Shown piece after piece: positions 11,296-13,780 of a stretch of 64,000 nucleotides of DNA (within the stretch, counting starts at the first letter, position 1; the number at the start of each line of letters is the position of its first letter). The position numbers and the translations under genes are program-made. The notes below the pieces were generated by a model. It ran no database searches and had not been told where the DNA came from. It saw nothing but the letters and a program-made list of their open reading frames with translations. The stretch is taken from assembly GCF_001999905.1 (NCBI RefSeq), contig NZ_CP019640.1, positions 3,390,001-3,454,000 of the forward strand, in the 5' to 3' direction. This stretch comes from Planococcus lenghuensis (lineage in GTDB: Bacteria; Bacillota; Bacilli; Bacillales_A; Planococcaceae).

Positions 11296-11393
11296 AGGGT
11301 AATACCGATGATACTGGTCTCAGGCTGACTGTCCTGTCCTCCTGCTACATAATCACACCACTAAAATGCATTACTTCCGTTAGGATGAGTTCA

Positions 11394-12104
11394 ATGAAAA
11401 ATGTGTTAGTAATTGACAATCAGTTAAACTTTCCCGGGAAAGAACTATTGAGCAACAAAGGCTATCATTTTGAGTGCTTATCCGACGTTGAACCGGCACT
11501 GAAACAATTAATGCGTACAAGCATCGCCGGTGTGCTGGTTTCATTCGATTTCATCAAACATGACATCGTATCGATCATCCGCGACATCAAGACGGCTTCC
11601 ATGGATAAGCCGCTGCTCGTTTATGCGGCGGATGATGAACTGAGCACCATTCTTATGATCGAAGCGGGCGCCGATGAAGTGCTGTCGCGGGATATGAATA
11701 TTCGGGAAGCGCAAGCCCGGGTGGTGAAACTATTTCATGTCTACCAGAAATTCACCGGTTTTGAAGACGCTCGATGGATGCAGAACGAATGCATCCACAT
11801 CCAGGAATTTAAATTGTACCCGTCCAGTTACGAAATCAGAAAAAATGAAGAAGCGGTCGAGCTGACTCCCCGGGAATTTTTCACGCTGCTGTTCTTGTAT
11901 GAAAACAGAGGTGAAATCGTTACACGGGATGCGATTGTAAATGAGCTGAGAAATACGTTCGGTAAAACAAGCGATAATAAGCGCATCACCGATATGTTCA
12001 TCTCAAATATCCGCAATAAGCTGGCGCTGAATTGTTCCAGTTCCTTCAACATCGTAACGGTCCGGGGACGGGGTTATTATTTTAAATTCAATACTCCTAT
12101 GTGA
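11394..12104 (+). CDS. Orphan OmpR/PhoB-family regulator with an atypical receiver domain
   Basis: The 236-aa product has a receiver-like domain (residues 1-115) and a winged-helix DNA-binding domain (about 130-235, with ELTPREFFTLLFLYENRGE and a C-terminal TVRGRGYYF hairpin). A phosphorylatable-type Asp is kept (SFDFIKHD). The N-terminal acidic pair is reduced to DN in VIDNQ, the switch Thr position is Ala, and the conserved Lys is Arg (VLSRD), so phosphorylation may be weak or absent. No histidine kinase gene is nearby. The second ATG (11394) fits best, with AGGATGAG upstream. Its place beside pstB-phoU hints at phosphate-linked control but does not prove it. Confidence 0.82.
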   Translation: MKNVLVIDNQLNFPGKELLSNKGYHFECLSDVEPALKQLMRTSIAGVLVSFDFIKHDIVSIIRDIKTASMDKPLLVYAADDELSTILMIEAGADEVLSRDMNIREAQARVVKLFHVYQKFTGFEDARWMQNECIHIQEFKLYPSSYEIRKNEEAVELTPREFFTLLFLYENRGEIVTRDAIVNELRNTFGKTSDNKRITDMFISNIRNKLALNCSSSFNIVTVRGRGYYFKFNTPM

Positions 12105-12134
12105 TCAGGAGTTGATATGCAAGTTTCTTCATGA

Positions 12135-12170
12135 AAAGCGGACAGGAGATCTCCCTGTCCGCTTTTTGTT
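12135..12170 (+). terminator. Terminator after the OmpR-like regulator
   Basis: AAAGCGGACAGG (12135-12146) is perfectly complementary to CCTGTCCGCTTT (12154-12165), with T-runs on the plus side (TTTTTG). Confidence 0.9.
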
Positions 12171-12264
12171 CCGTCTGTAATTCTGATTCCTTGATCTGCT
12201 TATCCGTTTTTTTATTCGCCGGCTGAGGGAAAATGATTGCCCTCATTAGAAAAACGGTGTTAGT

Positions 12265-12464
12265 TTTTTGTCATTCTTTATACAGATACAGCTGAGTGGC
12301 GATTAAGATCAGCTGAAGTCACTTTACGCGCCGGCGAATGTGCTTTAAGAAAGAATGAATGAACATTAAAAACATTTGAGTGCTCTTTAAACTTTCTCAA
12401 GCCGGTCAGCCTCCCATTTACTTTGACGGTTCATCCGACTAGGAGATAAAAGGAAGCTGACACC
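12265..12464. repeat. Repeat module A: five exact 21-bp units plus conserved flank
   Basis: The module starts after a hairpin 3' half (CGGTGTTAGTTTTTT) and holds five consecutive 21-bp units at 12291-12395. The units are degenerate in sequence but exact in length, with consensus GCTGAGTnCnCTTTAAG plus four variable bases. A conserved tail with GCCGGTCAGCCTCCCAT and GAAGCTGACACC follows. Module B repeats nearly all of it. Function unknown. Confidence 0.85.
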
Positions 12465-12480
12465 CCAAAACGCTGCTAAC

Positions 12481-12700
12481 TTTTTGTCATTCTTTATACG
12501 GATACAGCTGAGTGGCGATTAAGATCAGCTGAAGTCACTTTACGCGCCGGCGAATGTGCTTTAAGAAAGAATGAATGAACATTAAAAACGTTTGAGTGCT
12601 CTTTAAGAACGTTTGAACGCTCTTTAAACTTTCTCAAGCCGGTCAGCCTCCCATTGCTTTGACGATTCATCCGACTAGAAGATAAAGGGAAGCTGACACC
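12481..12700. repeat. Repeat module B: six 21-bp units plus conserved flank
   Basis: A near-identical copy of module A with one additional 21-bp unit (units at 12507-12632) and a few point changes. Because 21 bp is seven codons, an unbroken minus-strand frame (12494-12754) would encode a degenerate heptad peptide with HSN/HSP/TSA cores. I see no convincing ribosome site for it and do not call it a gene. Confidence 0.85.
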
Positions 12701-12722
12701 GAAAAACGGTATCAGCTTTTTA
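12691..12722 (+). terminator. Terminator-like hairpin ending module B
   Basis: AGCTGACACCG pairs with CGGTATCAGCT over an A5 loop, one mismatch, followed by TTTTTAT on the plus strand. A weaker version ends module A (12454-12485) and a half-copy precedes module A. Confidence 0.65.
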
Positions 12723-12742
12723 TGATTAATTGTAATAAGGCG

Positions 12743-12805
12743 GCTGTGTTGCATTTAAAGTCGGCTGAGATAACTTTAAGGCCAGCTGAGTTCACTTTAA
12801 GTCCT
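12743..12805. repeat. Repeat array C: three 21-bp units
   Basis: Three further units at 12743-12763, 12764-12784 and 12785-12805, closest to the consensus GCTGAG-TTCA-CTTTAAG, without the long flanks of modules A and B. Confidence 0.8.
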
Positions 12806-12849
12806 TCCTCCATCGGAATGCGCATGGATTCATAAGCGCCTAAAACAAA

Positions 12850-12894
12850 AAAGGCTATCCACACGTCGACGATACGACTGTCAGGATAGCCTTT
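12850..12894 (-). terminator. Terminator of the pstSCA operon
   Basis: AAAGGCTATCC (12850-12860) pairs with GGATAGCCTTT (12884-12894). On the minus strand it is followed by a T-rich TTTTTTGTTTTA. It lies 8 nt past the pstA stop. Confidence 0.9.
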
Positions 12895-12901
12895 GCTGTT
12901 T

Positions 12902-13780
12902 TTAATACCGGTGCTGGAATTTATTGCGGATCCAGACGGCGATAGCGTTCATCGCGAGCAAAATGACGAGCAGGACGATGATTCCGGCCCCGGCGACGAA
13001 TTGCCATTCCGGCTGTGGCCGGACGATCCAGCTGAAAATCTGGATGGGCATCGCTGTGTAATTGGCCAGCAATGAATCCGGAATTGCGTAAATCGTTGTG
13101 GCCGCACCAACGACGATGAGCGGAGCGGTTTCCCCGATTGCCCGAGACAGGGCAAGGATAGATCCGGTCAGAATGCCGGGAACCGCTGCCGGCAAGACGA
13201 TCGTCCAGATGGTCTGCCATTTGCTCGCGCCCATACCGGTGGAGGCTTCCCGCAATTCGTTCGGGACCGAGCGGATCGCTTCCTGGGATGCGACGACGAT
13301 AACCGGCAGGATCAGCAGGCTCATTGTGAGTGCGCCGGCGATGAGCGTGTAGCCTAAACCGAACAGGTAAACGAAAAACGTCAGGCCGAGCAGCCCGAAT
13401 ACGATGGACGGGACGCCCGCCAGGTTTTGGACGTTCACTTGAATAAACCGGGTGAACCGGTTCTTCGCTGCATACTCTTCCAAATACAGGGCTGTTGAAA
13501 CGCCAAGGATGATGGCAATCGGCGCAACGAGCAGCATCAGAAAAACAGAGCCCATGATGCCGGCCAGGAATCCGGCTTCTTCTGGAAACGGAGCCGGGAA
13601 GTTGGTAAGGAAATCGAAGTTCAAATAGCCGATCCCTTGCGACAGAACCCGGTAAATCAGCAGCGCCAGAAAGACCAAGCCGACCAGCGTTGCCAGCAGG
13701 AACAGATATTTCAGCCCCTTATTGAGCGTCACTCTTCCTTTTATGCGTTTAGACGTAGATGCCGCTTCTTTAGAAGCCAT
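12902..13780 (-). CDS. pstA: Phosphate ABC transporter permease PstA
   Basis: The second membrane subunit of the phosphate importer (292 aa). About six hydrophobic helices are visible. The permease coupling loop MGASKWQTIWTIVLPAAVPG is at about residues 184-203, and RAIGETAPLIVVGAA follows, typical of PstA. The start overlaps the pstC stop as TGATG, giving translational coupling. It is last in pstS-pstC-pstA, which ends here instead of continuing into pstB. Confidence 0.95.
   Translation of the reverse strand: MASKEAASTSKRIKGRVTLNKGLKYLFLLATLVGLVFLALLIYRVLSQGIGYLNFDFLTNFPAPFPEEAGFLAGIMGSVFLMLLVAPIAIILGVSTALYLEEYAAKNRFTRFIQVNVQNLAGVPSIVFGLLGLTFFVYLFGLGYTLIAGALTMSLLILPVIVVASQEAIRSVPNELREASTGMGASKWQTIWTIVLPAAVPGILTGSILALSRAIGETAPLIVVGAATTIYAIPDSLLANYTAMPIQIFSWIVRPQPEWQFVAGAGIIVLLVILLAMNAIAVWIRNKFQHRY

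Follow-up and report, generated by a model that had tools for sequence, protein, structure and literature searches.

Helically phased arrays of 21-bp direct repeats dispersed in intergenic DNA of Planococcus lenghuensis, with similarly spaced arrays in other Bacilli

Replication iterons and plasmid centromere repeats consist of helically phased direct repeats in tandem, each about 20-22 bp long, that are bound cooperatively by protein, and pneumococcal BOX repeats combine fixed ends with a variable number of internal units and act as structured RNA. Binding of gyrase, Pol I or IHF and association with RAYT transposases are marks of REP/BIME elements. The units of REP sequences are single stem-loops with a GTAG/CGTC foot, arranged in head or tail dimers, and a survey of the GTAG and CGTC types lists both of them in other phyla, not in Firmicutes (PMC3733652). 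Abundant short intergenic direct repeats are also described in Beggiatoaceae, where regulatory roles have been proposed for TAACTGA repeats with units of 7 bp (PMC4679880).

We analysed a window of 64 kb (C1:3390001-3454000) of the 4.15-Mb genome of Planococcus lenghuensis. Between the convergent genes for a response regulator (window positions 11385-12104) and PstA (12902-13780, minus strand; C1:3402905-3403780), 14 units of 21 bp stand in groups of five, six and three, each in a 21-bp register and all on the plus strand. Module A (12251-12395) consists of a degenerate hairpin (ACGGTGTTAGTTTTTT), a linker and five units at 12291-12395. Module B (12455-12632) is built from a degenerate hairpin (AGCTGACACC..GCTAACTTTTT), a linker and six units at 12507-12632, and module C has a hairpin at 12690-12723 (AAGCTGACACCG-AAAAA-CGGTATCAGCTT followed by TTT; stem of 12 pairs at 12690-12718) and three units at 12743-12805, the last of which faces the 3' end of pstA. 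An inverted repeat search placed a terminator-like hairpin of the response-regulator gene at 12134-12170 (plus strand, 13-bp stem, TTTTT) and a terminator-like inverted repeat of pstA at 12842-12902 (minus strand).

The 5+6+3 units and their strict 21-bp period had been described in an earlier note made from the sequence alone, and both were recovered here, with no array in three shuffles. The same note had called the repeats exact, but the mean identity from unit to unit is only 0.59, with a fixed core and free letters at the other positions. Its statement that modules A and B are near copies differing by one whole unit, unit number thus being variable, was borne out: positions 12251-12390 and 12467-12606 are 96% identical, and module B, with six units, equals module A, with five, plus one whole unit. 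The hairpin that was said to border each module is clean in module C and degenerate in A and B, and the terminator-like AGCTGAYRCC hairpin accompanies many arrays but not every one. A CRISPR array was ruled out, as the 21-bp units have a degenerate core and are not identical repeats with unrelated spacers between them.

These arrays, like iterons, are tandem direct repeats of about 20 bp at a fixed helical spacing, but they occur at about 30 chromosomal loci, and the array in the window adjoins pstA and the response-regulator gene and no replication or partition gene. With BOX elements they share modules of variable unit number, a likeness of architecture, whereas they lack a consistent RNA fold. 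Like REP/BIME sequences, they are short, dispersed elements of intergenic DNA that prefer convergent or unidirectional spacers close to the 3' ends of genes, and both comprise many sequence families with one architecture as well as clusters with tandem modules (PMC3733652). Unlike REP units, theirs are direct repeats that form no palindrome and keep to a fixed 20 or 21 bp, and the hairpin is separate. Abundance, shortness, direct repetition and intergenic position are common to these arrays and the TAACTGA repeats of Beggiatoaceae, while unit length and taxon differ.

The core of the unit is TGARTGnnnnTTAAR, and the remaining positions are free. Over the units, T13, T14, A15 and A16 are conserved at 95-98% and T3, G4, A5, T7 and G8 at 79-94%; positions 6 and 17, 11 bp apart, are purines in 99% and 96%, and positions 2, 10, 19 and 21 are nearly random. 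When cores were found independently of each other, 185 of the 187 core-to-core steps of up to 30 bp measured exactly 21 bp, the other two being 22 and 11 bp. Matches within a unit amount to 0.34 at lag 10 and 0.33 at lag 11, compared to 0.21-0.25 at lags 5-9 and 12-16, with 11 bp from TGAR to TAAR and 10 bp from TAAR to the contact of the next unit. Over 26 families, the AT-content harmonic at 10-10.5 bp (the second harmonic) carries 25% of the power, compared to 10% when positions are permuted and 12% in intergenic DNA free of arrays, and in most of these families AT-rich patches recur every half unit, which corresponds to one helical turn. Helical phasing demands just this, a constant length with letters free to vary. 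The idea that each unit covers two helical turns and presents one face of the DNA, already put forward in the earlier note, is consistent with the spacing without indels, the sub-period of 10-11 bp and the helical phasing of AT content.

Identity between units is 0.591 within an array and 0.578 between loci, and this equality indicates that there has been no recent local expansion by slippage. Across loci, units of equal ordinal number resemble each other slightly more (0.602 versus 0.581, p < 0.004), an effect that comes mostly from a distinctive first unit, so ordered arrays have to some extent been copied.

Arrays of this kind also occur elsewhere in the genome. With as many as two mismatches allowed, a two-unit pattern gave 156 matches in it and none for a reversed-pattern control, and a genome search with a 21-bp position matrix, the check proposed earlier, returned with 21-bp chaining 38 arrays and none in three shuffles. 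A sequence-only profile, for which 150 of 954 candidates were scored, identified at least 45 arrays at no fewer than 30 loci; every match listed lies on contig C1. Among the 45 arrays listed, 26 have six units, seven have five, six have three, four have seven and two have four, and at 11 of the 30 listed loci two or three modules of 206-236 bp stand in tandem. All seven exact genome matches of the hairpin family AGCTGAYRCCG..CGGTRTCAGCTTTTT adjoin arrays, and at many array loci the hairpin is absent or decayed. The suspicion of a dispersed and undescribed repeat element thus proved apt as far as the open literature goes, as searches of open papers by description and by core sequence yielded no account of these arrays. 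A plasmid collection contained no match to the array, and of two pattern matches in viral contigs one was a 21-bp repeat of another sequence and the other had no array.

To relate the arrays to genes, we compared 64 array-bearing spacers (22 convergent, 40 co-directional, 2 divergent) with 769 spacers of at least 120 bp (116 convergent, 461 co-directional, 192 divergent), where genes were called by a home-made caller, the loci of the own genome were chosen for holding arrays and other genomes were sampled in part. Divergent spacers were depleted of arrays (p = 9e-6) and convergent ones enriched (p = 3e-4), and the samples from other genomes alone showed the same trends (p = 9e-4 and 0.03, respectively). 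Of the 40 arrays in co-directional spacers, 29 are closer to the stop of the upstream gene (p = 0.006). Gene ends face the last unit of an array 29 times, with a simple terminator in 19 of these cases, and the first unit 16 times (13 with a terminator), and arrays often lie beyond terminators. Promoter avoidance alone could put a harmless repeat at gene 3' ends.

The pst genes offer a natural control. The genome contains three copies of pstA with at least 95% protein identity (C1:3402905-3403780, C1:1741979-1742854 and C2:254241-255116), each followed by a convergent regulator region, and arrays are present only at the copy in the window. The spacers towards the convergent regulator at the other two copies, at 1.74 Mb of C1 and on contig C2, hold no array; the plasmid copy on C2 retains a similar terminator after pstA. 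No convincing array was seen in about 1.5 kb after pstA in the genomes of 47 relatives. Either the array was therefore acquired in this lineage or it has disappeared elsewhere; the locus can do without it, and it does not belong to pst regulation as such. In the flanks, no terminal inverted repeats or target duplications were noticed by eye, the other pst copies being too diverged to provide an exact empty site. The orthologous spacer between pstA and the regulator in a genome of the same genus (G001) contains a different repeat, AGGGGCTGTCCAAAAAGCC ... CAGACAGCCCCTC, and the same spacer has thus taken up unrelated repeats in two species.

In 101 relatives, among them the one other genome of the genus, and likewise in 261 order-level and 399 class-level genomes, the core of the window array was no commoner than expected by chance, and among the genomes scanned arrays with this core occur in the own genome only. 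Profile matches at E ≤ 0.001 were obtained in 14 other genomes of the family, and those inspected were mostly real arrays, with four to six units or more at a period near 21 bp (in some near 20 bp) and cores of their own; a few looked like chance matches. Similar arrays with other cores are thus present in other Bacilli; the earlier note had mentioned similar heptad frames in other Bacillales. An autocorrelation scan without a sequence model, applied to samples of 100-400 kb per genome, showed that nearly all intergenic lags are 20, 21 or 40-42: within the family 20 of 22 in G264 and 9 of 9 in G168, one in G117, two in G011, five in G020 and none in G038. Outside the family they made up 4 of 4 intergenic lags in G494 and 2 of 2 in G613; G546 had only lags 17 and 22, and G519 none. 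Lags of coding repeats in these samples were multiples of 3. In G264 periods of 20 and 21 are equally common, and G494 gave 20/41. Cores in the relatives include GCGCTCAAGAA (period 20), TTATCGATCATTTCCC (21), GAGTTCTC (21), CGCATAAATC (20), TTTATGATCACT (21) and GTAGAAA..AGTTCA (21), and the GTAGAAA arrays of G168 are often preceded by a hairpin of their own, GCTTTTCGCCATGGCGAAAAGC or similar. In the 400 kb sampled from G264 (C1:900001-1300000), about 20 arrays belong to some eight core families, and one array in this genome has about 39 units of 20 bp. Across relatives, the spacing along the helix is conserved and the words differ, which suggests a DNA-binding or DNA-wrapping role.

How such arrays arise and act can be read in several ways. 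Neutral minisatellites generated by replication slippage are a very doubtful explanation, which we disfavour: the near copies A and B differ in unit number and some relatives have long homogeneous arrays, but identity within arrays equals that between loci, indel drift is absent and the period of 20 or 21 bp recurs in unrelated sequences. An RNA element or a coding heptad repeat is hardly credible, even though 21 bp correspond to seven codons, an ORF of 86 amino acids runs across module B and the cores are partly palindromic. The heptad coding frames proposed in the earlier note are excluded by the period-20 arrays of relatives, as 20 is not a codon multiple and intergenic arrays, unlike coding repeats, are not restricted to such multiples; moreover, several consensus frames contain stops. 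Structured RNA is an unlikely explanation of the arrays, which often lie beyond terminators: five arrays folded on both strands gave no consistent structure (z from +0.5 to -2.6, with differing folds), and Rfam returned one match far below the gathering score. Since coding, RNA structure and slippage do not fit, what remains is an action at the level of DNA. From the observed family, its fixed spacing, the core with free positions, the 3'-end location and the geometry shared with relatives we infer, tentatively and with somewhat less than even confidence, a helically phased array that is bound or wrapped by a putative cooperative, sequence-specific protein and forms a boundary at transcript ends. 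The locus would belong to a family of helically phased direct-repeat arrays scattered over the genome, each 21-bp unit being a putative site whose contacts (TGAR and TAAR) are separated by roughly one helical turn, and five to seven units would provide about twelve contact patches on one DNA face. A putative DNA-binding protein, different for each core family, may coat or wrap this face cooperatively, and the coat, just beyond the terminators, could separate adjacent transcription units in that it stops read-through or retains supercoils. Arguments against this reading are the array-free pst copies and pstA flanks, the restriction of the core to this genome among those scanned, and the possibility that a harmless repeat ends up at gene 3' ends through promoter avoidance.

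Two other readings also act on DNA. A selfish or mobile non-autonomous repeat, whose hairpin and phased sites would serve a mobilising or amplifying enzyme and which would survive harmlessly at 3' ends, is the chief competing reading, albeit on the unlikely side. It agrees with the dispersed copies that share hairpin, linker and a first-unit variant (TGAGTGRCGATTAAGATCG), the likeness of same-ordinal units across loci, the tandem modules, the absence from the paralogous pst loci and the several core families per genome. The absence or decay of the hairpin at many loci speaks against it, as do the saturated variable positions with intact spacing, which suggest age and constraint; nor were terminal inverted repeats or target duplications noticed by eye. 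If the arrays are selfish, they represent a kind of repeat whose spread requires a helically spaced enzyme. It is quite improbable that they are preferred sites of DNA gyrase or another wrapping enzyme that relaxes supercoils at transcript ends and recognises bendability instead of sequence, as with the BIMEs of Escherichia coli. Six units of 21 bp amount to 126 bp, roughly the length of one wrap around gyrase; the AT patches one turn apart, the 3' and convergent positions and the fact that unrelated cores have only geometry in common would also suit such an enzyme. However, the core is base-specific (TTAA, not any A or T), which bendability alone does not need, and a relative has arrays of up to about 39 units.

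Bacterial intergenic repeats are usually sorted by sequence, whereas here a spacing of two helical turns is kept across genera and the words change, which points to nucleoprotein assemblies at transcript ends. It is speculative, and in our estimate rather unlikely, that the arrays of 20 or 21 bp form a class of intergenic elements of Bacilli at transcript ends, set by helical geometry and not by sequence, with many unrelated cores that each have their own DNA-binding protein, and that they act as insulators between transcription units. The spacing itself provides a sequence-independent rule for finding such arrays in many Bacilli genomes and, should they be boundaries or topological sites as in the preferred protein-bound reading, insulation between bacterial operons would be directly testable.

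Within the Planococcus lenghuensis chromosome, 24 of the 30 listed array loci lie in the half nearer dnaA, which is at the start of C1 (11 below 0.93 Mb and 13 above 2.79 Mb). If the terminus is assumed to lie opposite dnaA, 24 of the 30 listed loci run counter to the direction of replication (p = 0.0014), possibly as a mere consequence of gene orientation. The same genome contains at least two further 21-bp array families with the cores TTTCGCAAGTAnTCACCA and TTATCCGCATTCAACGGTCGC, one located just after the array that ends at C1:3005841 and one near C1:3197750.
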